A stretch of 61,078 nt of DNA from Deltaproteobacteria bacterium (GCA_025363655.1 JANYDK010000003.1:1-61078); one strand, 5' to 3'. Shown: positions 23,956-51,633, numbered from the stretch's first letter. Made by a program: numbers and translations. Notes: generated by a model not told the origin, from the sequence alone.

Positions 23956-24765
23956 TCACTTCTTCGGTGACAGAACCACCGTGAACGTGACGGTCGACGA
24001 GCCGCCTTTGGTTTCGAAGAGGAAACCATTCGGGGCCGCCGCGACGCAGCTGGCGAGCGCCGACGACAACGTGGTCGACACCACTTGCGTCTTGGTCACC
24101 GCGCCGCTGTCGTCGACGGTGAGCCTGAGCGTGACCTTTCCTTCGGCGGTCGGGTCGGACATCAGCGCCTTGCCGTAACAAGCTTTGAAGCGCCACCGAT
24201 TGCGCGCGATGACCGAGTCGGCGTTGGTGACCATGCCGCTGACCGTCGCGGCGCCGACGCTGGCTTCAGCGGTCGGCCCCTTCATCGTCACGGTCGGCGG
24301 CGCGATTCCGTACGCGGCCGGCGCGGGAGGCGCGATGCCGGTGAAGCTCGTCGGAGGCGGTCCTCCATACGCTGCTGGAGGAGGACCTCCATACGCCGCG
24401 CCGATGCCGATACCGGTCGGCGAAGGCGGCACGGTGCCGATGCCGATCGCGAGATCGGAGTTGCTGGCCGAAGGGGTCGGGGAAGGCGTCGGCGCCGGTG
24501 GTTTTGGATCGCTCGTCTGCGCCGACTCGAACGCCGGATCTTTCGGCCTCCGCGGCTCGTCGATGGTGACCTTGTCACTCTTGTCGTCTCGGCAACCGAC
24601 TTCGGCGCTGGCTGCGACGAGGGCCGTGGCGAGGAGAAACGCGCTTCGACTGCCGCGACCCGGGACGACGACGTTCGAGGTCGCGACGGTGGCGCAGTAG
24701 GGGCAGGCGTCGCCCGCACGGACGTGACGTCGACACATTGCGCACGGGACGAAGACGGCGCTCAT
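23956..24765 (-). CDS. zinc-ribbon protein with AgmX/PglI-type C-terminal domain
   Basis: The 269-residue protein starts with a four-cysteine ribbon (C8-x2-C11-RRHVR, CPYC at 21-24), then a hydrophobic segment ending at Cys58 (EVGC), a Pro/Ser/Thr linker with repeated AYGGPPP and SFTG/AYGIAPP blocks, and from about residue 180 an AgmX/PglI-type domain (VIARNRWRFKACYGKAL, GKVTLRLTVDDSGAV, LASCVAAAPNGFLF). AgmX/PglI domains belong to myxobacterial envelope and motility proteins. The ribbon is the same module found in the three proteins at 44474-45845. It lies 60 bases downstream of radical SAM enzyme 1. Confidence 0.8.
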   Translation of the reverse strand: MSAVFVPCAMCRRHVRAGDACPYCATVATSNVVVPGRGSRSAFLLATALVAASAEVGCRDDKSDKVTIDEPRRPKDPAFESAQTSDPKPPAPTPSPTPSASNSDLAIGIGTVPPSPTGIGIGAAYGGPPPAAYGGPPPTSFTGIAPPAPAAYGIAPPTVTMKGPTAEASVGAATVSGMVTNADSVIARNRWRFKACYGKALMSDPTAEGKVTLRLTVDDSGAVTKTQVVSTTLSSALASCVAAAPNGFLFETKGGSSTVTFTVVLSPKK

Positions 24766-24825: not shown

Positions 24826-26121
24826 TCACGGCTCTAGCCAGCCCTCTCCCGTCTTCGCCACCTCGCGCGCACGATCGAGCTCGTTTTGCGGCCAATCCTC
24901 GCAAACGACGGTGAAGGCGCCGAAGTCGAAGGGCGCGCCCATCGGGGCCACGTCGCGCACCAGGCGCTCGCGTTTGCCTTGCTGCAAGAGCTCGAGCGCG
25001 CGGTGATGACAGAAGGGATTGTTGCCGGGCTTACCCATCACCACGTGCGTCGTCCAACTGCATCCGCCCATGCAACCTTCGGCGTAGTAGCAGTCGCGAC
25101 AGAAGCCAGAGAGATCGTCCTTCGTGCGATCGCGCGTGAAGCGGAGCGGCGTCGATTGTTCCCAGATGGTTTGCAACGATGCGTCGCGGACGTTGCCGCC
25201 GACGTAGTCGCTCGTCGGCAGTGACGGGCATCCTTTGATGTCGCCGTTGGCCTCGATGCCGAGCACCGAGCGTCCGGCGCCGCACGAGGTGTGACTGCCG
25301 CGAGGGAGCCCACCACGGAGCAGCGCCTCGTCGGGGCCGAAGTAACCGATGTTCGCCGCCGGCCAGAAGACGACGTCGAGCTCCTTCGCCTGACGCGCGA
25401 TGCGCGCGAGCATCGGCATCACCTCGATCATCTGGAAGGGCTCGAGCAGGAGGTGCGGCTCGTCGGCAGCGCGGCCCATGGCGACGGTGAGCTGCACCTG
25501 CCAAGCGCGGATTCCCGAGCCAGCGACGAGCGAAAAGACGCGCTCGATCTCGCGAAAATTGGCGCGACCGATTTGGCAATTGCTGGAGACGGGAATGCCG
25601 ACCTCGTGCAAATGCTCGATCGCGTTCATCGCCGCGGTGAACGAGCCTTTGACGCCACGAAGTGCGTCGTGCGTCGCCTCGAGCCCGTCGATCGAGACCG
25701 ACACGCTCTCGAGCCCCGCGTCCTTCGCCTGCCTCGCGCGCTCGCGGGTGAGCGCGCGACCACCGGTGGTCATCGAGCACTGCATGCCGCGACGACGAAT
25801 CGCCGCCACGATTTGCGTCCAGTCGTCGCGCAGGTACGCCTCGCCGCCGATGACGGTGACCTCGAGCACGCCGAGGTCAGCCATCTGTTCGACCAAGTCG
25901 AGCGCCTGCGCGGTGGTGAGCTCGTCGGGACGCGCACGACCGGCGCGCGAGCCGCAGTGTCGACAGGAGAGGTCGCACTGGAGCGTGATTTCCCACACGC
26001 AGTAGACCGGACGGTAATGACGATCGACGTCGCGCGACGGTCCCGCGATCGGCAAGTGGCGTCGCGACGGCCCTGCCGAGGGCGCGATCGGCAACGTGCG
26101 CGGGCGTGTACCGATGTCCAT
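24826..26121 (-). CDS. radical SAM/SPASM peptide-maturase-like enzyme 1
   Basis: The 431-residue protein carries the radical SAM motif CDLSCRHC-type CX3CX2C at Cys49, 53 and 56, GGEAYL for SAM binding, and a C-terminal SPASM cysteine cluster (CGAGRS, IKGCPSLP, FCRDCYYAEGCMGGC, PFCHHR) that would bind auxiliary iron-sulfur clusters. It is very like enzyme 2 at 43096 through the whole length. SPASM enzymes usually modify ribosomal peptides by C-C, C-S or C-O bond chemistry. Its substrate is not obvious; the adjacent ribbon/AgmX protein is the only nearby candidate. Confidence 0.88.
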   Translation of the reverse strand: MDIGTRPRTLPIAPSAGPSRRHLPIAGPSRDVDRHYRPVYCVWEITLQCDLSCRHCGSRAGRARPDELTTAQALDLVEQMADLGVLEVTVIGGEAYLRDDWTQIVAAIRRRGMQCSMTTGGRALTRERARQAKDAGLESVSVSIDGLEATHDALRGVKGSFTAAMNAIEHLHEVGIPVSSNCQIGRANFREIERVFSLVAGSGIRAWQVQLTVAMGRAADEPHLLLEPFQMIEVMPMLARIARQAKELDVVFWPAANIGYFGPDEALLRGGLPRGSHTSCGAGRSVLGIEANGDIKGCPSLPTSDYVGGNVRDASLQTIWEQSTPLRFTRDRTKDDLSGFCRDCYYAEGCMGGCSWTTHVVMGKPGNNPFCHHRALELLQQGKRERLVRDVAPMGAPFDFGAFTVVCEDWPQNELDRAREVAKTGEGWLEP

Positions 26122-41574: not shown

Positions 41575-42483
41575 GTGGCGGAAGAAGTGCCTCCGCCTCC
41601 GCCGTCGATGGGACGCGAGTCTTTGCCACCGCCTTCGTCGATGATGGCCGATCGGCCGAGCATCATGCCCTCGGCGCGCATGATGGCGGCCAATCGCCCC
41701 CCCGAGCTCGGCTTCTTCGAGCGTCAGGTGAGGCGTTGGTCGAACTTCATCGACGACCTCGGCGGCATCGCCATCCTCTCGGCGCGCACCGCACGTGCGC
41801 TCTTCAAGGCGCCGCTCGAATGGCGCGCCATCGTCTACCAGATGGAGACCGTCGGCGTCGCCTCGATGGGCATCGCCAGCATCACCGCCGTCTTCATCGG
41901 CATGGTCATGGCCATCCAATTCGCCTTCGGCCTGCAGAAATTCGGGGGCATGGAGTACGTCGGCCGCGTCATCGGCCTCTCCTTCGCCCGCGAGCTCGCG
42001 CCCACGCTCACCGCGATCATCGTCGGCGGTCGCGTCGGCGCCGGCATGGCCGCCGAGGTCGGCGCGATGAACGTGACCGAGCAAATCGACGCGATTCGCG
42101 CGCTCGGCGCCGATCCGGCGAAGAAGCTCGTCCTCCCGCGCGTCGTCGCCACCATCTTGGTGATGCCTGTGCTCTCGTTCTTCGCCCTCGCTCTCGGCTT
42201 CATCGGCGCCATGGTGGTGGTGAGCACGCAGTTCAGCATCTCGATGCTCTTCTTCTTCCGCTCCGCGCTCGAGACCGTGACCCTCAAAGACCTCTGGGCC
42301 GGCATCGGCAAGACGCCGGTCTTCGGGTTCATCATCTCGATCATCGGCTGCTACTTCGGGCTCAAGACGACGGGCGGCACCGAGGGCGTCGGACGCTCGA
42401 CGACGTCGACGGTGGTGGCAATTTCGATCACCATCCTCATCGCCGACTTCTTCCTGACGAAGCTCTTCATCGCCATGTTCTGA
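41575..42483 (+). CDS. mlaE: MlaE-family ABC transporter permease
   Basis: GTG start one base after the preceding stop; 302 residues. After about 60 residues of Pro/Ser/Met-rich cytoplasmic sequence comes a classic MlaE permease: VYQMETVGVASMGIASITAVFIGMVMAIQ, FARELAPTLTAIIVGGRVGAGMAAEVGAMNVTEQIDAIRALGADP (the coupling helix) and several membrane spans. MlaE moves phospholipids between outer and inner membranes. The usual ATPase (MlaF) and MCE protein (MlaD) genes are not adjacent. The Pro-rich N-terminal extension is unusual. Confidence 0.92.
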   Translation: MAEEVPPPPPSMGRESLPPPSSMMADRPSIMPSARMMAANRPPELGFFERQVRRWSNFIDDLGGIAILSARTARALFKAPLEWRAIVYQMETVGVASMGIASITAVFIGMVMAIQFAFGLQKFGGMEYVGRVIGLSFARELAPTLTAIIVGGRVGAGMAAEVGAMNVTEQIDAIRALGADPAKKLVLPRVVATILVMPVLSFFALALGFIGAMVVVSTQFSISMLFFFRSALETVTLKDLWAGIGKTPVFGFIISIIGCYFGLKTTGGTEGVGRSTTSTVVAISITILIADFFLTKLFIAMF

Positions 42484-43059: not shown

Positions 43060-43088
43060 TTGTCGTCATGACGACGAACACCTAGCCT
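43060..43088 (+). promoter_or_regulatory. promoter of the radical SAM/peptide operon (leaderless)
   Basis: TTGTCG (43060-43065), 17-base spacer, TAGCCT (43083-43088), then 7 bases to the ATG at 43096. There is no Shine-Dalgarno sequence, so the mRNA would start at or next to the initiation codon. Confidence 0.5.
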
Positions 43089-43095
43089 CTCGCAG

Positions 43096-44400
43096 ATGTC
43101 CGATTCCTCGAACACTGGCCCGCTCTCGCCAGACGAGCGACGCGCGATCCTCGATGCGCCGCGGCCGCGCCGTTCGCTCCCCTTGGCCGCGCGCCCAGTC
43201 GCATCGCGGGTGCAGCTGCCGCTTGCCGACGAATCACGCGCGGTCGATCGCACGATGCGCCCGATTTATGCCGTCTGGGAGCTGACGTTGGCTTGCGATC
43301 TCGCGTGCCGTCACTGCGGGTCGCGGGCTGGCGTGGCGCGCGACGACGAGCTGACGACGAGCGAGGCCCGAGATCTCGTGCGACAGATGGCGGCGCTCGG
43401 CGTGCGCGAAGTCGCCCTGATTGGAGGCGAGGTCTATCTGCACCCGGGTTGGACCGAAGTGGTCGCCGAAATCCGCCGCTGCGGGATGCAGAGCACGATG
43501 GTCACGGGTGGGCGAGGCATGACGCCGGAGGTCGCGGCCGAGGCTCGACGCGCCGGCGTGCAGAGCATCGCGGTGTCCATCGACGGACTGGAGGAGACGC
43601 ACGATCGCCTGCGTGCGCTCGATGGCTCACACGCAGCAGCGCTGACCGCGCTGCGCAATTGTCGCGCGGCGGGGCTGCCGGTGGCGCTCAACACGCAGGT
43701 CAATCGCCTCAACCTCGGCGAGCTCGAGGCCGTCGCCGACGTCCTCTTCGAGGTCGGCGCGCACGGTTGGCAGGTGCAGCTGACGGTCCCCGCCGGTCGC
43801 GCTGCCGACGAGCCCGCCGTCATTCTTCAGCCCTACGATCTGCTCGAGCTCTTCCCGCGCCTCGCCGCGCTCAAGGAGCGATGCGACCGCGGTCGCATCA
43901 AGATGATGGCAGGCAACAACGTCGGCTATTACGGCCCCTACGAGCATCTGCTTCGTAGCTATTGTCACGATCGGCACGGCGATTCGTGCAGCGCGGGGCG
44001 TTCGGGGCTCGGCATCGAGGCCAACGGCGACATCAAGGGTTGTCCATCGCTGCCGACCGCGAAATGGGTCGGCGGCAACGTTCGCGCGAATACGCTGGAA
44101 CGAATCTGGGAACGCAGTCAGCCGCTGCGTCACATGCGTGATCGCACGCGCGACGAGCTCTGGGGATACTGCGCCGAGTGCTACTACGGCGACGACTGCA
44201 AGGGTGGTTGCACCTGGATGGCGACCTCACTCTTCGACCGGCCCGGCAACAACCCGTACTGTCACCATCGCGCGCTGGAGATGCAGGCGCGCGGCAAGCG
44301 CGAGCGCGTCGTGCGTGTGGAGGAAGCTCCTGGACTGTCCTTCGACTGCGCCAGATGGGACCTGGTGGTCGAAGATCTGCCCGCGAAGGCCGAAAAATGA
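43096..44400 (+). CDS. radical SAM/SPASM peptide-maturase-like enzyme 2
   Basis: The 434-residue protein carries CX3CX2C at Cys67, 71 and 74 (LACDLACRHCGSRAG), GGEVYL, and a SPASM cluster (SCSAGRS, IKGCPSLP, YCAECYYGDDCKGGC, PYCHHR). It is closely similar to enzyme 1 at 24826. It is first in an operon with three small ribbon/peptide proteins, which are its probable substrates. My recollection is that public annotation uses the name 'GDL motif peptide-associated radical SAM/SPASM maturase' for such myxobacterial enzymes; the first peptide here ends GGDLV, which fits, but I cannot verify this. Confidence 0.9.
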   Translation: MSDSSNTGPLSPDERRAILDAPRPRRSLPLAARPVASRVQLPLADESRAVDRTMRPIYAVWELTLACDLACRHCGSRAGVARDDELTTSEARDLVRQMAALGVREVALIGGEVYLHPGWTEVVAEIRRCGMQSTMVTGGRGMTPEVAAEARRAGVQSIAVSIDGLEETHDRLRALDGSHAAALTALRNCRAAGLPVALNTQVNRLNLGELEAVADVLFEVGAHGWQVQLTVPAGRAADEPAVILQPYDLLELFPRLAALKERCDRGRIKMMAGNNVGYYGPYEHLLRSYCHDRHGDSCSAGRSGLGIEANGDIKGCPSLPTAKWVGGNVRANTLERIWERSQPLRHMRDRTRDELWGYCAECYYGDDCKGGCTWMATSLFDRPGNNPYCHHRALEMQARGKRERVVRVEEAPGLSFDCARWDLVVEDLPAKAEK

Positions 44401-44473
44401 GCGCTCCGGCGATTTGTGGGGCCGACTGCAACGGCCTACTATCGAGCTCGGTCTTCGGCTGGGAGGTCTCGAC

Positions 44474-44905
44474 ATGAGCTCGCTCGTTCTCTGCTCGACA
44501 TGCCGCCGCCATGTGCGTCTCGGGGCCACGACGTGTCCGTTCTGTTCCGCGAGCATCACGTCCGGCGAGCCGGGAGGCGGAGACCGCTCACTCGCGACGC
44601 GTGGCCTCTCGCGGGCTCGCATGTACGCGCGCTATGCAGCCATCGCCACGGGCGTCGCCGCGTGCGGCGGTTCATCGTCCGAGACCTCTTCCACGGACGC
44701 AGCCGGTGATGCCGCCACGGACACTGCCGCCAGCGACACCGGTGCGGCGACCGACTCACGCGGCGATGCGAGCGGCGATGGCAGCGTCGCCGACGCCGGT
44801 GCAGACACGCCGGACACCGTCTCCGACGCGCCGCCCGACACGCCGTGCTGTCCACCTTACGGATGCGTGTTCCCTGATACGGCTTGCGGCGGAGACCTCG
44901 TCTGA
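44474..44905 (+). CDS. ribbon/peptide protein 1, probable radical SAM substrate (GGDLV end)
   Basis: ATG follows GGGAGG with 7-base spacing. The 143 residues run: zinc ribbon (C7-x2-C10-RRHVR, CPFC at 21-24), a hydrophobic segment to Cys64 (YAAIATGVAAC), an Asp/Ala/Thr/Ser linker, and a C-terminal peptide PPYGCVFPDTACGGDLV preceded by two more cysteines. The ribbon would stay in the cytoplasm and the peptide could be displayed outside. Its stop overlaps the next start as TGATG. The end is conserved in the two following proteins, which suggests that it is the modified core. Confidence 0.85.
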   Translation: MSSLVLCSTCRRHVRLGATTCPFCSASITSGEPGGGDRSLATRGLSRARMYARYAAIATGVAACGGSSSETSSTDAAGDAATDTAASDTGAATDSRGDASGDGSVADAGADTPDTVSDAPPDTPCCPPYGCVFPDTACGGDLV

Positions 44906-45327
44906 TGTCGGCGTTCACGCTCTGCGAAGCCTGTCGTCGTCATGTCCGCACGGGCGATGCGAGCTGTCCCTTCTGCGGTGCCAACGTGGCGACCGTGGCG
45001 AACGAGGCGACCGTGGCGACCGAAGCGACGCAATCGCCGATGCACGCAGCCAAGGGCTCGTCGCGCGCGCTCCTCTACGCCATCGCAACGAGCGTGGCGG
45101 CGCTGTCCTGCGAGTCACCGCGCGGACCATCCGTGCCCTCTGGTGGCAACGCCGCCGACGCGGGCACTGCGACCACCACGACAGCCACCGCGACGACTAC
45201 GACCACTGCAACCGGCACGGTCGATCCCAACTGTCCCAAAGGTCCGCCGCAGTGCTTCGATCGGCCGCCGAACATGCCCTACGGCTGCGTATTTCCCGAT
45301 GAAGCGTGCACGGGGGAGATCGTCTGA
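44905..45327 (+). CDS. ribbon/peptide protein 2, probable radical SAM substrate
   Basis: Start overlaps the previous stop as TGATG; 140 residues. The ribbon (C7, C10, C21, C24; EACRRHVRTGDASCPFC) matches protein 1. After a VAT/EAT repeat linker comes a hydrophobic segment ending at Cys69 (YAIATSVAALSC), a Thr/Ala-rich linker, and a C-terminal region with CPKGPPQCFDRPPNM then PYGCVFPDEACTGEIV. It shares RPPNMPYGCVFPD with protein 3. No known fold beyond the ribbon. Confidence 0.85.
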   Translation: MSAFTLCEACRRHVRTGDASCPFCGANVATVANEATVATEATQSPMHAAKGSSRALLYAIATSVAALSCESPRGPSVPSGGNAADAGTATTTTATATTTTTATGTVDPNCPKGPPQCFDRPPNMPYGCVFPDEACTGEIV

Positions 45328-45845
45328 TGTCCCGCTACGTCACCTGCTCGGCGTGCCGGAGACACGTGCGTCTCGGCGAAGCGCGTTGCCCGTTCTGCGA
45401 CTGTGAACGATTGCTCGAAGAATCGAGCTTCATCGCGCCTCCTGGTCTCTCGCGCGCGGCGCTCTTCGCGCTCTCTACCGGCGTGGCCGCACTCGGATGC
45501 GAGACTCCTCCAGGGAGTGGCGCGCCGGCGACGTCGACGAGCAGTGCGCCGACGACGACCACGATGGCCACTACCAGCGCTGCCCCGAGCGCGACCGCTT
45601 CGACCTCGGTGACTGCCAGCGCTGCCCCGTCTGCATCCTCCTCGGCGAGCGCCGCCCCGGGTGCTTCTGCGAGTGCGATCATCGCCGATGCAGGCGTCGA
45701 TTCGGGCGCCCTTGCTGGCAAGCCGAAGGCGTCTGCTTCGGTGACGGCGCTGCCGACCGCCACCGTGAAGAAATGGGATCGGCCGCCCAACATGCCTTAC
45801 GGCTGCGTTTTCCCCGATCCCGCGTGCGAAGGCACGTCGGTCTGA
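45327..45845 (+). CDS. ribbon/peptide protein 3, probable radical SAM substrate
   Basis: Start overlaps the previous stop as TGATG; 172 residues. Ribbon cysteines at 7, 10, 21 and 24, an extra cysteine at 26, hydrophobic segment ending at Cys58 (LFALSTGVAALGC), a long Ser/Ala/Thr linker, and the end PYGCVFPDPACEGTSV after WDRPPNM. The last 49 bases overlap the end of the convergent hydrolase gene, so the conserved peptide is encoded on DNA read in both directions. Confidence 0.85.
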   Translation: MSRYVTCSACRRHVRLGEARCPFCDCERLLEESSFIAPPGLSRAALFALSTGVAALGCETPPGSGAPATSTSSAPTTTTMATTSAAPSATASTSVTASAAPSASSSASAAPGASASAIIADAGVDSGALAGKPKASASVTALPTATVKKWDRPPNMPYGCVFPDPACEGTSV

Positions 45846-47119
45846 TTGGCTGCGATCCAGGCCGCCACCACCGACGCGAGATGCCCGTCAGTGACGCCGG
45901 CCTGTGGTGTCTTGAAGCTGGTGATCAAGCTCTCGTGCGCCCGCAGGTCGTGACCGACGCGCGGGAGCTCCGCGAACGAAGCGCGGCCGCCTCCATCTTC
46001 TACCGCCGCGACGATGACGCGCCCCTCTTCGGCCGAGCAAATCCAGTCGTATTCGCCATGGAGAACGAGCACCGGCACGCCGACCGAGCGCCAGAGGGCG
46101 GCGAGGTCGACGCGGTCGAGCTGCTGAAGAAAGGACACGTGACGACCGAACATGGAGTCGCCCCGGTTCTGCGCCGATTCGAGACGTCGAAGCTCGGGGG
46201 CGCGCGCGAAAGCTTCCGCGGGCGTGAGACCTTCTCCGTAGATGGCGTCGCCGAACGTCGACCACGCGCGCATCTGCTCGTCGAGCGCGTCGCCGTCGAG
46301 CCCACCGAGTCGTCGCTGTCGTCGAGTCGTCGCGAGGACGCAGTCACGCCATCGGAAGCCGCTGGTCCCGAAGGCGATGACGCCGGCGACTCCGTCGTCC
46401 GGCCCGGCAAGGAGCGGAGCTACCATGCCGCCGAGGCTGTGGCCGTAGAGATGGATGCGACGTGGATCGACGTCCGTTCGTGCGCGAAGGGCAGCGAGGG
46501 CAGCTCGCGCTTGGGCAACCTCGGCGAAGAAATCGAGCGACGCCGCTGGAGGCCCTTCGCTGTCGCCGACGCCGCTCCGTTCGTAGCGCTGGACGACGAA
46601 GCCGCAGCGCGCGAGCTCGGCCGTGAGCAAGCTCGGGCCATGGCGAGGGTCGAGCGGTGACTCGCACGACTCACACCCGATGCCTTGCAGATAGAGAATC
46701 GCTGGAGCGAGCGCGCGCGATTCACCCTGGATTTTCGTGACGATGGTGCGAAGTCGATGCGTAGTCCCGTCGGCTGAAGACCATGGGCACTCGCCATGGT
46801 CCACGTCGATACCGGCGTGGCTCTCGCGCGGAAGGGGCTCGAGCTGGACCTCGAGCGCGAGCGTTTCGTCGGCGCGACGCACCGAGAGGAGGAGCGGCCG
46901 ATCGCAGCCGCAGGCACGCACGGCGGCGCCGAGGAGGTGCGGCTCGGTGAGGGAGACTGCGTCGGCGGCAAGAATCAGATCGCCCGCGCGGAGGCCTGCC
47001 CGCCCTGCCGGCCCATCGTCGGTCACCTGTGCGACCGAAGCGAAGGCGCGTCCACGAACGAACGGACCGAGACGCAGGCCGAGGTGAGCGCGCCGAGGCA
47101 AGGGCGCCAGCTGATACAT
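45797..47119 (-). CDS. PDZ-alpha/beta hydrolase fusion
   Basis: ATG at 47119 gives 440 residues. Residues about 12-95 are a PDZ-like domain (LGLRLGPFVRGRAFASVAQV, GPAGRAGLRAGDLIL). From about 115 an alpha/beta hydrolase follows with nucleophile Ser228 in YGHSLGG, LHGEYDWICS giving the acid, and VGHDLRAHE giving the histidine; it resembles peptidase/acyl-hydrolase family S9/S15-like enzymes. No signal peptide. It converges on ribbon/peptide protein 3 with a 49-base overlap and diverges from the hydroxyacid dehydrogenase with 9 bases between starts. Confidence 0.85.
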   Translation of the reverse strand: MYQLAPLPRRAHLGLRLGPFVRGRAFASVAQVTDDGPAGRAGLRAGDLILAADAVSLTEPHLLGAAVRACGCDRPLLLSVRRADETLALEVQLEPLPRESHAGIDVDHGECPWSSADGTTHRLRTIVTKIQGESRALAPAILYLQGIGCESCESPLDPRHGPSLLTAELARCGFVVQRYERSGVGDSEGPPAASLDFFAEVAQARAALAALRARTDVDPRRIHLYGHSLGGMVAPLLAGPDDGVAGVIAFGTSGFRWRDCVLATTRRQRRLGGLDGDALDEQMRAWSTFGDAIYGEGLTPAEAFARAPELRRLESAQNRGDSMFGRHVSFLQQLDRVDLAALWRSVGVPVLVLHGEYDWICSAEEGRVIVAAVEDGGGRASFAELPRVGHDLRAHESLITSFKTPQAGVTDGHLASVVAAWIAANQTDVPSHAGSGKTQP

Positions 47120-47120: not shown

Positions 47121-47128
47121 GTCGGACC

Positions 47129-48091
47129 ATGATACGCCGCGCGGGCCGTTGCGAGACGATCCACGTCTGTCTGCCCGACGACGTCGACGCGGTGGCGATG
47201 GCCTCGGTGCTGGAGGCGACAGGACGAGCCGTGATCGTCCTCGCGCAGGAGGAGCTCGGCCTTCGTCTCGGCGAGATCGACGTGCTCTTCTGCGGTGCCG
47301 TCCCGGCGATCGACTGGTCGAGCGCAGGCTCGCTCCGGCTCGTGCAGATGCTCGGCTCCGGCGTCGATTCGCTCTGGCCGGCCGATGGTCTCCCGCGCGA
47401 GGTGCAGGTCGCGAACGCACGCGGACTCCACGTCGCCGAGATTCGCGACCACGCGCTCGCGCTGATGCTCTCTTTCGAACGCGAGCTGCCGCGACTCGCG
47501 GCGCAGCAGATGAAGCGACAATTCGAGCCGTTTCCCACGGGTTCGGTGACGGGAAAGACGCTCTCCATCCTCGGCGTCGGCGAGATTGGGCGCGGGCTCG
47601 CCAAGGCCGCGCGTGCGCTCGGCATGCGCGTCGTAGGAACGAGGATGCATCCGGAGCCGTGTGCCGACATCGACGAGACGCTCGGTCCGGACGACGCGGC
47701 GCGCGCCCTCGAGGTCGCAGACTATGCGGTGGTGCTCCTCCCGTTGACGTCACGAACGCGCGGATCGATCGATCGAGCGATGCTCGCGCGGCTGCGGGCG
47801 CACGCGGTGCTCTTGGTGCTCTCTCGTGGCGGCATCGTCGACGAGATGGCGCTCGAGGAGGCCCTTCGCAGCGGCCGATTGCGAGGTGGCGCGCTCGACG
47901 TCTTCGCGGTCGAACCGCTCCCGAGCTCGAGCACGCTTTGGACCACGCCGAACCTGGTGATCACTCCACATCAAGCGGGATGGATGCCCGACCTCGTGCC
48001 ACGCATCCTCGCGCTCGCGATCGAGAACATCGAGCGCGTCGAACGCGGAGAGCCGCCGCGAACGGCGATCGACCGCCAGCATCGGTACTGA
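47129..48091 (+). CDS. D-isomer-specific 2-hydroxyacid dehydrogenase
   Basis: The 320-residue protein has the NAD loop GVGEIGRGLAKAARALGMRVVG and the family's catalytic stations: LSRGGIVDE (Arg), ALDVFAVEPLP (Glu) and ITPHQAGW (His). The N-terminal flanking domain is divergent (LLPLTS is typical further on). Members reduce 2-keto acids with NAD(P)H; phosphoglycerate, glyoxylate or other substrates cannot be separated from sequence. No Shine-Dalgarno sequence. Confidence 0.9.
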   Translation: MIRRAGRCETIHVCLPDDVDAVAMASVLEATGRAVIVLAQEELGLRLGEIDVLFCGAVPAIDWSSAGSLRLVQMLGSGVDSLWPADGLPREVQVANARGLHVAEIRDHALALMLSFERELPRLAAQQMKRQFEPFPTGSVTGKTLSILGVGEIGRGLAKAARALGMRVVGTRMHPEPCADIDETLGPDDAARALEVADYAVVLLPLTSRTRGSIDRAMLARLRAHAVLLVLSRGGIVDEMALEEALRSGRLRGGALDVFAVEPLPSSSTLWTTPNLVITPHQAGWMPDLVPRILALAIENIERVERGEPPRTAIDRQHRY

Positions 48092-48132: not shown

Positions 48133-51100
48133 TCACCGAGACGTCGGCACTCGAACGATGGTCGCTCCCGCGCGCTCGGCGAGCTCGACGACGTGACGAT
48201 GGCAGGTGAAGACGAGGACCTGGGTTTTTTCCGCGTATTCGGTGAGCGCGGCGAGCGTCGCCAACGTGCGCGGCTCGTCGAAATTGACCAAGACGTCGTC
48301 GAGCACGACCGGGAGCGCCTCGGCTGTCCGCTGGTACTGACGAACGTAGGCGAGCCTCAACGCGAGAAAGAGCTGTTCGCGGGTGCCGGTGCTCAGTTGC
48401 TCGGGGTGCACGACCCTCCGCTCGTCCTCCGTCGCCACCGTGAGGACGGCGTCGAGCCCGTAGCGCACGTGCGCCCAACGACCGAGCGTCATCGTCCGGA
48501 GCAAGGCGCCAGCCTCGGCCAGCATGAGAGGCTGATTTTCCCGCTCGAAACGCTTGATCGCAGCATCGAGGAGCGACTCGGCGACGACGATCGCGGCGTA
48601 GCGTTCGACGTCGGCGCGGAGCTGAGCTCTTTCTGCTTCTGCCGCGGCGCGCGCGTCGGCTGCGTCGGCCCCATCATCGACGCGGGCGAGCGCGGTCACT
48701 GCGCTGCCCACCTCCTCGTCCCGACGGCGACGCTCGACCTCCACCATCGAGAGCTCTCGCTCGGCGGCCGCGAGGGCCTCGCGCAAGGACGACTCGTCGC
48801 AACCTTCGAGCTCGAGGACGAGCGCGTCGAGGTCGGTGCCTGCGACGAGGCGGAGCTCGCGCGAACGCTCTTCGACGATGCGCTGCAGCGCGTGCGCACG
48901 TGTGGAGAGCTCGGCAAGACGACGGAACTCGTCATCGCTCGCCGCCGAGACCTCGTTGCGGAGCCCGGCGCGCGTCGCCTCGAGCTCGGCGAGCGAGGTC
49001 GAGACCCGTTCGCGACGGCTGCGCGCCGAGGTGAGCGACCGCGCCAACTCGTCGATTCGCCGTTTGAGTTCGCGTGCCGCCCGGACCTCGCCGGCGCGTC
49101 GCTCGAGCTGCGTGACGACGGCATCGTCGGTCGTCGCCAGAGGCAGGACCCGGAGCACCTCCTCACGAAATCGGCTCAGTTCATGGTCGATCGTCGCGGC
49201 TTGCGCGGTCAGCCGTTGCTCTTCCGGCAAGAAGCGTTGTCGCAGCTCGACCAAACCGAGGACGACTGCTCGGAGCGCCGCTGGCGAACCCTTGGTCGTC
49301 GGTGCCAGCTCGTCGGCGAGGGCGTCGAGGCGGGCGGTGAGCTCGACGCTCTCGATTCGTGTTCGTTCGAGGGCCGCGCGCGTGGCCGAGCTCTGGACCT
49401 CGTCGCGCTCGCGGGCGGCGGCGATGGCGCTCACGTCACTCGCGCGCGCGTGCTCGGCCTCGACGCGACGTTGCGCGAGCTCGCGCAGCGCGGTGATCGA
49501 CCCAGTTGCGATTTGGAGCAGCGTTCGCCCTCGGGCGATGAATGATTCTTGCCGGGCGAAGTGCTCGTCCCGCGTCGCTCGCGACTCGTCGAGGCGCGCG
49601 CGTGCATCGAGAAATGCGTCGCGATCGCGCAGCCAAGCCTCCATCACCGAGGGGGCGAGCGGCCGGATGCCACAGCTGGACCAACTGCCGATCCATCGCT
49701 CGTCGAGTCGGGCTCGTTCGTCGAGGAGTTGGCCTCGCTCGCGTGCGAGGGTCGCGAGGTTCGCCTCGAGCTCGGCCGCGCGCCCCTCGATCGCGATGCG
49801 CCGTTCGACCGCGTTGGCGCGGCGGCGCATGTCGTCGACGACCGCATCGGCCACGTTCACTGCGTCGACGACGGCTCGACCGAAAGGCGCTCCCCGATCG
49901 AAGGCGGTCATCGCTGCTGCATCGGACTCGCCCGCCGCTTGGGCCGCGAGCAGTCGAATGCCCTCGTCGCGTCGTGCCCGCGCAGTACGCAGCTCTGGCT
50001 CGGTGGGTGCGACACCCTCTGCGGCGAGGGTCGCCCGATCGGCTGCCAGTCGGTCGCGATCGGCCTCGCGCGCAGTGACGCTCGCGGCGAGGACCTCTGC
50101 ACGTCGATCGAGGATCGCGTAGGCCGAAGCGATCGCCTGCACCTCCTCGCGCGGAGGCGGACGAATCGCCGCTGGATCGGCCGATCCCAGCGTCGCCTCG
50201 AGGCGACGAAGGTGTGCGTTCACTTGCCGCGTCGCCTCCGAGATCGCGACCTCGAAGGAAGCGATGCGCTTCTCGTCGGCGAGCGCGAGCGAACACCCCG
50301 CGAGCCACTCGTCGAGACCGCCGAGCTCGGCCGCGGTGAGCGGCGCCGGGAGTGATCTCATGCGAGCTTCGAGGCTCGAGAGATGCGCGTCGACGTCGCG
50401 CAACGATCCGAGGAGACGATGACGTTCGCCGGCGAGGTCCTCGCTCCGACGCGAGGCTTCTTCGACGGTGAATCGCTTCGTCGAATCGAGCGCAGCGTGA
50501 CGCAATCGCTCCGCACTCCAGGCTGGCGCGAGGACGTCGAGCCGCACCTCGGCGTCGCGCACCACGGTCTCGAGCTCGCCACGCACCCGATGACGCGCGC
50601 TCGTGGCGTCGCGGAAGCTGGGGAGGCGACGATGCAAATCTTCGATGATTTCCGCGTCTTCTCCGATCGTCGAGGTACCGAGGGCCACCGCCTCGGCCTC
50701 GAGGTCGCCGACATCCTTCTCTTGCACGCCGAGCTCATGCGTCGCGCGCTCGGCCGCGATCGTCATCGCCGCGAAGCTGGTGACGGTCTCGGCCGACAGC
50801 TGCTTCGCGGCGACGGGGAGCAACTCGAGCTCACGCTCGGCCGCGCGCATCGCGAGGAGGGGACCAAGACCGTCGACGCGCGCCCGGGCTCGCGATGCCG
50901 CGGTGCGAAGTTGCGCTACGCGCTCGCCCGTCGCATCCGCAACAGCCTTCTTCGCCGCCTGGTCCTCGCGCAGCCGACGCAGCTCGTCGGCGGTGATCGT
51001 CGCGCTCCTCCCGGCCTTCTCGAGCTCCTCGATGCGCCGGAGGGTCGCGTTGATCCTCGGCTTCTGCGCGCGCTCGGTGAAGAGAGCATCTCGCTCGCGA

Positions 51101-51633
51101 GCGAGGTCGGCGAGCAGCCGTTGCGGCCGCACCGACGCCGAAAGCCCAGCGCCGTAGATGGCGCCTCGCACCTCGTCCCGCGACAGCTCGGCGCTACCCC
51201 GCGCGAGAGCATCGAGCGAAAAGGCGAACACGCTCTCGAAGAGTTGCCGATGGGGATGGGAGAGACGCTGCTGGAGCCAGTCTTCGCCGACGTCGTCGCC
51301 ACTCTCCAACATCCGCGCCGTGAGCGACGCTTTCTGCGTTTTCTTGCGCAAGAGGCCGACGCGCACCGGTTGTTCGATCTTGAGCAGCTCGATTTCACCG
51401 CCGACGGCGAGCTCGCTCATCTCGAATGAACGATCGATCGGCAAGAGCTCCTTCGCTTGATGAGGAAAGCCGAAGAGGAGGCATCGGATGGCCTCGAGGA
51501 TCGAGCTCTTGCCGGCCTCGTTGTCGCCATGGACGACCACGAGTCGCGACTTCGCGCCAGGGGCCGGAGCGAGCGAGAGGCTCGCGTCGACGAAGTGCCG
51601 AAAACGAACCAGCGTGAGGCGGAGCAGGCGCAC
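48133..51633 (-). CDS. SMC-like ATPase of the YhaN/SbcC type (DNA repair)
   Basis: GTG start, 1166 residues. N-terminal ATPase half with LVRFRHFVDASLSL and Walker A GDNEAGKS at 36-43; long Arg/Glu/Ala-rich coiled coils from about 170 to 1000; C-terminal half with STGTREQLFLALRLAY (ABC signature) and LPVVLDDVLVNFD (Walker B). This is the AAA_27/YhaN layout. Such ATPases work with an Mre11-like nuclease, and one is encoded 6 bases upstream. Probable role: processing of DNA ends in the cytoplasm. Confidence 0.9.
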   Translation of the reverse strand: MRLLRLTLVRFRHFVDASLSLAPAPGAKSRLVVVHGDNEAGKSSILEAIRCLLFGFPHQAKELLPIDRSFEMSELAVGGEIELLKIEQPVRVGLLRKKTQKASLTARMLESGDDVGEDWLQQRLSHPHRQLFESVFAFSLDALARGSAELSRDEVRGAIYGAGLSASVRPQRLLADLARERDALFTERAQKPRINATLRRIEELEKAGRSATITADELRRLREDQAAKKAVADATGERVAQLRTAASRARARVDGLGPLLAMRAAERELELLPVAAKQLSAETVTSFAAMTIAAERATHELGVQEKDVGDLEAEAVALGTSTIGEDAEIIEDLHRRLPSFRDATSARHRVRGELETVVRDAEVRLDVLAPAWSAERLRHAALDSTKRFTVEEASRRSEDLAGERHRLLGSLRDVDAHLSSLEARMRSLPAPLTAAELGGLDEWLAGCSLALADEKRIASFEVAISEATRQVNAHLRRLEATLGSADPAAIRPPPREEVQAIASAYAILDRRAEVLAASVTAREADRDRLAADRATLAAEGVAPTEPELRTARARRDEGIRLLAAQAAGESDAAAMTAFDRGAPFGRAVVDAVNVADAVVDDMRRRANAVERRIAIEGRAAELEANLATLARERGQLLDERARLDERWIGSWSSCGIRPLAPSVMEAWLRDRDAFLDARARLDESRATRDEHFARQESFIARGRTLLQIATGSITALRELAQRRVEAEHARASDVSAIAAARERDEVQSSATRAALERTRIESVELTARLDALADELAPTTKGSPAALRAVVLGLVELRQRFLPEEQRLTAQAATIDHELSRFREEVLRVLPLATTDDAVVTQLERRAGEVRAARELKRRIDELARSLTSARSRRERVSTSLAELEATRAGLRNEVSAASDDEFRRLAELSTRAHALQRIVEERSRELRLVAGTDLDALVLELEGCDESSLREALAAAERELSMVEVERRRRDEEVGSAVTALARVDDGADAADARAAAEAERAQLRADVERYAAIVVAESLLDAAIKRFERENQPLMLAEAGALLRTMTLGRWAHVRYGLDAVLTVATEDERRVVHPEQLSTGTREQLFLALRLAYVRQYQRTAEALPVVLDDVLVNFDEPRTLATLAALTEYAEKTQVLVFTCHRHVVELAERAGATIVRVPTSR

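Follow-up and report, generated by a model that had tools for sequence, protein, structure and literature searches.

What does a radical S-adenosylmethionine (SAM) enzyme do to the small proteins encoded next to it? The question is raised by positions 43,060 to 45,845 of a 61,078-nucleotide stretch from a Deltaproteobacteria bacterium (GCA_025363655.1 JANYDK010000003.1:1-61078; the whole stretch is called the window below), where the gene of a radical SAM/SPASM enzyme is followed by three small genes. A preliminary description of the locus proposed that the enzyme cross-links a C-terminal peptide common to the three small proteins. From the comparisons presented here we consider it likely that the locus encodes a splicease together with linked substrates that are exported as lipoproteins; the enzyme would excise tyramine from the protein backbone rather than install a cross-link.

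The small proteins and their pairing with the enzyme

All three small proteins contain the features first described for them: a four-cysteine ribbon (C-x2-CRRHVR...CPFC), a hydrophobic stretch ending in cysteine and a low-complexity linker. The TGATG linkage noted earlier is found at both junctions between small genes, where stop and start codon have one base in common; the junction between the enzyme gene and the first small gene is not coupled, since the two are separated by a gap of 73 bp. Pfam and NCBIfam scans of the three proteins returned weak zinc-ribbon matches only; there was no match to DUF1843 in the Pfam scan and no Nif11/NHLP-type leader in either, the ribbon standing in its place.

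GTDB contigs were scanned once and 184 genomes of the order were searched, which together provided 107 loci for comparison. The substrate set comprised 164 distinct ribbon proteins, 113 of them adjacent to an enzyme gene and 51 forming a second set located mostly away from enzyme genes. Four parts stay constant over the loci: a CxxCxRHVR...CPFC ribbon at the N-terminus, a lipobox, a tail that is disordered, and sites of the form X-Tyr-Gly (XYG). As the same arrangement of ribbon, lipobox and Tyr-Gly recurs across this set of 164 proteins, it is not a chance layout.

The lipobox extends the preliminary description. As is typical of signal peptidase II lipoproteins, the motif [LVA]-x-[GAS]-C closes the hydrophobic segment: position -1 is G, A or S in 162/164 proteins, and only 9/164 have Asp at +2. 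What was called a membrane segment is therefore better taken as a lipoprotein signal, and lipidation is predicted. An exported, membrane-anchored product, as first suggested, is supported in this modified form; because the hydrophobic segment would be a lipoprotein signal, the ribbon would be absent from the mature protein. Unlike usual bacterial lipoproteins, these proteins have about 40 to 60 residues with the four-cysteine ribbon ahead of the lipobox, so that a folded domain would remain on the cytoplasmic side.

Tyr-Gly is found downstream of the lipobox Cys in 108 of the 113 enzyme-adjacent ribbon proteins and upstream of it in none; contig ends truncate three of the five exceptions. This set has 251 Tyr-Gly sites where shuffling gave a mean of 51 and a maximum of 70, a fivefold excess over the mean, and 251 of its 291 tail tyrosines are in Tyr-Gly. 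The second set has Tyr-Gly in 50/51 proteins, accounting for 105/112 tyrosines, versus 10/76 in ordinary genes of the window, which served as a control. Most often Tyr is preceded by L, A, P, R, M or V, and Gly is followed by A, G, L, I or S, with Pro next in 81%. The family-wide constant is X-Tyr-Gly, usually followed by [AGLS]-P. All three window cores read PYGCVFPD; Pro, the X residue in each of them, occupies 13% of the sites overall. The longer peptide YGCVFPDxACxGxxV is present at the C-terminus of all three window proteins, as first reported. Its exact form is limited to a small enzyme clade (the window, Polyangium and loci L030-L032), with a looser form in L055, L075 and L088, and since it is confined to one clade the Cys-rich peptide was rejected as the conserved core.

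A ribbon-lipoprotein with a C-terminal OmpA domain was seen beside an enzyme paralogue in the window's own genome (L018, C67; 4220-4930, + strand), with IYG just ahead of the domain.

The preliminary description named widespread homologues of the small proteins in genomes without any radical SAM gene as the observation that would speak against it. No such distribution was seen. Ribbon proteins are present in 100 of the 184 genomes of the order, the enzyme accompanies them in 99 of these 100, and 63 genomes have neither; in a phylum sample the enzyme is present in 84/87 ribbon-positive genomes. Fisher's test gives p < 1e-28 for the co-occurrence, a significance inflated by relatedness. An enzyme-substrate relationship is supported by this genomic pairing, and the earlier idea of a maturase with ribosomal substrates stands in outline, its chemistry being probably wrong. 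Ribbon proteins outnumber the enzymes, with 26 and 27 against 3 enzymes in genomes G007 and G005, respectively. The window's own genome encodes six complete enzymes, one fragment and approximately fourteen ribbon proteins. Among these, a second enzyme and ribbon-lipoprotein pair in the window was absent from the preliminary description.

The ribbon also occurs outside the substrates. A profile of the substrate ribbon matches the Azospirillum and Aureibacter enzymes at their C-terminal end and the Tropicibacter enzyme at its N-terminal end, and in L101 it matches a separate 72-amino acid (aa) gene whose start overlaps the stop codon of the enzyme gene. It has no match in the window enzyme or in a related Nostoc enzyme, and a search for a ribbon fused to the window enzyme found none. 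The substrate candidates of the Azospirillum, Aureibacter and L101 enzymes, DUF1843 peptides or related proteins, are without a ribbon and most have LYG, PYG or MYG; the DUF1843 peptides at TIGR03913 loci mostly have LYG or PYG. Because the ribbon is found within enzyme relatives, as a coupled separate gene and in substrates, it is probably a recognition module for the enzyme, in agreement with the enzyme-recruiting leader proposed before.

Two of these loci have further content. L101 (4417-6571, + strand), from Myxococcaceae, encodes a DUF1842/1843-like protein with LYG and MYG, the enzyme and the discrete ribbon gene. In L233 (3695-8289, + strand), on a plasmid of Tropicibacter oceani, the enzyme with the N-terminal ribbon shares a cluster with another radical SAM gene and with genes for a phosphotransferase, a trypsin-like protein and an M23 peptidase, and a nearby protein has LYG.

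Enzyme family and predicted reaction

The window enzyme scores 435 bits to TIGR04103 (nif11-class maturase 3; curated cut-off 725) and 434.5 bits to TIGR03913 (GDL; curated cut-off 591.75), and the third-ranking NCBIfam family reaches 155 bits only. As both cut-offs are missed, we would assign it to neither family. The second enzyme of the window scores 480.6 bits to TIGR04103. All ten cluster cysteines (67, 71, 74, 298, 316, 359, 362, 368, 372 and 389) are invariant in 32 homologues. The best PDB folds for the predicted structure (mean confidence, pLDDT, 87) are SkfB and PqqE, along with SuiB; sequence and fold searches of the PDB confirmed the SPASM fold and gave nothing further. In a tree of 40 enzymes, the window enzyme clades (support 100/97) with enzymes that have substrates terminating in YG[CG]V[FW]PD plus a short tail.

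A Nostoc plasmid enzyme with 46% identity to the window enzyme over 388 residues passes TIGR04103 (853 bits). It is flanked by a 71-aa gene that overlaps its 3' end and by a Nif11 precursor with the end GSIALYGLPPELF, the C-terminus reading ALYGLPPELF. We take IPR026482 to be the InterPro entry of TIGR04103. PlpX, the splicease of the Pleurocapsa plp cluster, has been placed in IPR026482 by a review (PMC11002830). XYG is the published tyramine-excision motif of PlpX-type spliceases (PMC10533398, PMC11002830, PMC10373908); the prototype acts on MYG and LYG with a mass loss of 135.0757 Da, and published splice tags include the core LYGLPI, with LYGLP as the PlpA splice tag core, and a GYGVVFP tag (PMC10533398). 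The window enzyme thus appears to be a myxobacterial relative of the PlpX-type spliceases.

With PlpXY the present system has in common a radical SAM/SPASM enzyme of the same broad clade, with the radical SAM CxxxCxxC and a seven-Cys SPASM domain, several XYG sites per precursor (often L, A, V or M before YG, then a small residue and Pro), and, in some loci, a short gene overlapping the enzyme gene, which here is the ribbon gene of L101. It differs from PlpXY in that its substrates are ribbon lipoproteins instead of proteins with Nif11 or NHLP leaders, that many of them are unlinked in each genome, and that the enzyme falls under the TIGR04103 cut-off. The GDL system of TIGR03913 is equally close by score: its Azospirillum member is about 50% identical to the window enzyme, most of the DUF1843 peptides seen carry XYG, and a ribbon is part of the system. 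There, however, it is the enzyme that carries the ribbon, at its C-terminus, and not the substrate; the window enzyme is without one. The GDL substrates are small cytoplasmic-looking DUF1843 peptides without a lipobox. The maturases of sactipeptides and ranthipeptides have the same SPASM architecture, and SkfB is the best solved structural match, but identity to them is about 21%, they belong to different NCBIfam families, and the substrates here have no conserved Cys pattern.

Proposed pathway and rival explanations

We propose that in the cytoplasm each small protein docks the enzyme through its N-terminal ribbon, which is probably a zinc ribbon, and that tyramine would be excised there at XYG, leaving an alpha-keto-beta-amino acid (ketoamide) in the chain. 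The spliced protein would then be exported as a lipoprotein, and the cut by signal peptidase II ahead of the lipobox Cys would take off ribbon and signal together, serving as leader removal. The tail, with its electrophilic ketoamide, would end up at the membrane surface, and a few enzymes per genome could serve many dispersed ribbon proteins. At the surface the product might inhibit proteases, as published beta-residue products of the splicease class do (PMC10373908), or it might serve in covalent capture.

Several points weigh against this pathway. The chemistry is extrapolated, since the enzyme scores under the cut-offs of both named families, and the placement of PlpX in TIGR04103 depends on the InterPro number given in PMC11002830 and on taking that number as the entry of TIGR04103. 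Pro as a splice residue was not found documented in the splicease literature consulted, and no homologue of the PlpY-like 71-aa Nostoc protein was found among the open reading frames (ORFs) of the sampled loci. A ribbon protein was not recognised by pattern in 22/107 loci, several of which reflect contig ends and at least two pattern misses, and all counts are inflated by genome relatedness.

A cross-link in the C-terminal peptide (thioether, cyclophane or ether, for example from Cys to a backbone carbon or from Tyr to a neighbour) is what most characterised SPASM peptide maturases make. The window peptide offers two Cys and one Tyr for it, and the best solved folds include the sactipeptide enzyme SkfB beside PqqE and SuiB. 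We nevertheless judge it improbable. Cys is found near Tyr-Gly only in one small clade; elsewhere the site continues with A, G, L or S and then Pro, with no conserved acceptor and, among the sampled substrates outside that clade, no conserved Cys around YG. The Gly after Tyr is conserved although a cross-link does not need it, and it belongs to the splicease motif; among named families, TIGR04103 and TIGR03913 come nearest, rather than those of sactipeptides or cyclophanes. The cross-linking proposed in the preliminary description is unsupported because the only invariant element near the site, Tyr-Gly, is the published tyramine-excision motif and no acceptor is conserved across the substrates. 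That the small proteins are ordinary zinc-ribbon lipoproteins, with Tyr-Gly-Pro merely a linker feature and the enzyme acting on another target, seems to us more improbable still. The ribbon alone is a common fold, and some Tyr-Gly is to be expected in linkers with a high content of Gly, Ala, Pro and Asp, but Tyr-Gly occurs at five times the shuffled expectation, the enzyme accompanies the ribbon proteins in all but one of the 100 genomes of the order that have them, and ribbons are found inside enzymes of the same family.

Tyramine excision, which we prefer to both, could also be followed by further steps. As an extension of splicing and not an alternative to it, the ketoamide may be an intermediate that a D-2-hydroxyacid dehydrogenase reduces to an alpha-hydroxy-beta-amino acid, while a PDZ-hydrolase docks on the Val-ended C-terminus and processes the protein; we regard this as a speculative possibility. 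In L030 (5037-7268, + strand) an in-frame fusion joins the dehydrogenase to the radical SAM enzyme, giving a 744-aa ORF with radical SAM, SPASM and 2-Hacid_dh_C domains. The dehydrogenase subfamily is found beside the enzyme, a ribbon protein or the hydrolase in 8/10 genomes having it, and the window copy keeps the NAD motif and the Arg/Glu/His positions. A 2-oxo-reducing enzyme class beside a predicted 2-oxo product is suggestive, no more. The PDZ-hydrolase adjoins the enzyme or another module gene in 17/25 genomes having it, as counted from coordinates. C-termini ending in Val are of the kind that PDZ domains bind, and substrates end in Val in 15/19 loci with the hydrolase versus 11/92 without it, an association uncorrected for relatedness. 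Against the reduction step, the dehydrogenase is rare (10/184 genomes), its usual substrates are small 2-oxoacids, and the fusion is from one assembly only; we know of no peptide-acting member of either the dehydrogenase or the hydrolase class. Clustering of conserved neighbours also yielded opposite-strand shadow ORFs, which were discounted.

In its widest form, which we put forward only tentatively, backbone editing would be genome-wide: in each genome, up to about 27 exported lipoproteins would receive ketoamides from a few spliceases, the ribbon address being discarded by signal peptidase II, and in one branch including the window the dehydrogenase would give the alpha-hydroxy-beta-amino acid and the PDZ-hydrolase would read the Val-ended C-terminus.

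The reaction class, tyramine excision, is already known. The spliceotide work of Morinaka (2018) and Scott (2022) is considered here to the extent that it is represented in PMC10533398, PMC11002830 and PMC10373908. Within these sources, ribbon-lipoprotein substrates, the genome-wide scale, a ribbon in common with GDL enzymes and the two partner genes were not found described; the Scott 2022 survey may include some such systems. If correct, the proposal would carry backbone splicing beyond single-peptide natural products: in a large group of bacteria it would be a programme that modifies many surface lipoproteins. The site (XYG) would be concrete, the ribbon a portable address tag, signal peptidase II the predicted means of leader removal, and the mass change exact. 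The movable ribbon would also link two named, unexplained families, TIGR03913/DUF1843 and TIGR04103, and ketoamide-tagging enzymes with a different recognition logic could be usable for protein labelling. Scott's survey of splicease systems reportedly comprises 939 predicted ones.

Layout of the locus

Features of the candidate splicease locus and its partner genes in the window; functional assignments are predictions
Feature	Position	Strand	Remarks
Radical SAM/SPASM enzyme, splicease-like, 434 aa	43096-44400	+	CxxxCxxC at residues 67-74; seven SPASM Cys
Candidate substrate lipoprotein 1, 143 aa	44474-44905	+	Ribbon, lipobox VAAC, tail end CCPPYGCVFPDTACGGDLV
Candidate substrate lipoprotein 2, 140 aa	44905-45327	+	Ribbon, lipobox ALSC, tail end PNMPYGCVFPDEACTGEIV; TGATG-coupled to gene 1
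Candidate substrate lipoprotein 3, 172 aa	45327-45845	+	Ribbon, lipobox ALGC, tail end PNMPYGCVFPDPACEGTSV; TGATG-coupled to gene 2
Ribbon of substrate 1 (Cys7-Cys24), presumed recognition leader	44492-44545	+	Equivalents in substrates 2 and 3
Predicted lipidated Cys64, substrate 1	44663-44665	+	Lipobox
Predicted lipidated Cys69, substrate 2	45109-45111	+	Lipobox
Predicted lipidated Cys58, substrate 3	45498-45500	+	Lipobox
Predicted splice site Pro-Tyr-Gly, substrate 1	44855-44863	+	Motif of PMC10533398
Predicted splice site Pro-Tyr-Gly, substrate 2	45277-45285	+	XYG motif
Predicted splice site Pro-Tyr-Gly, substrate 3	45795-45803	+	XYG motif
PDZ + alpha/beta-hydrolase (GHSLG), convergent with third small gene	45797-47119	-	
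D-isomer-specific 2-hydroxyacid dehydrogenase, partner gene	47126-48091	+	
Second splicease-like enzyme of the window, 53% identical to the first	24826-26121	-	
Ribbon-lipoprotein adjoining second enzyme	23956-24765	-	Three XYG in linker (AYGGPP twice, AYGIAP); weak TonB_C-like C-terminal domain

The system is flanked by an MlaE-like ABC permease gene (41575-42483, + strand) and by a gene for a large SbcC/SMC-like ATPase (48133-51633, - strand), both judged from sequence only.

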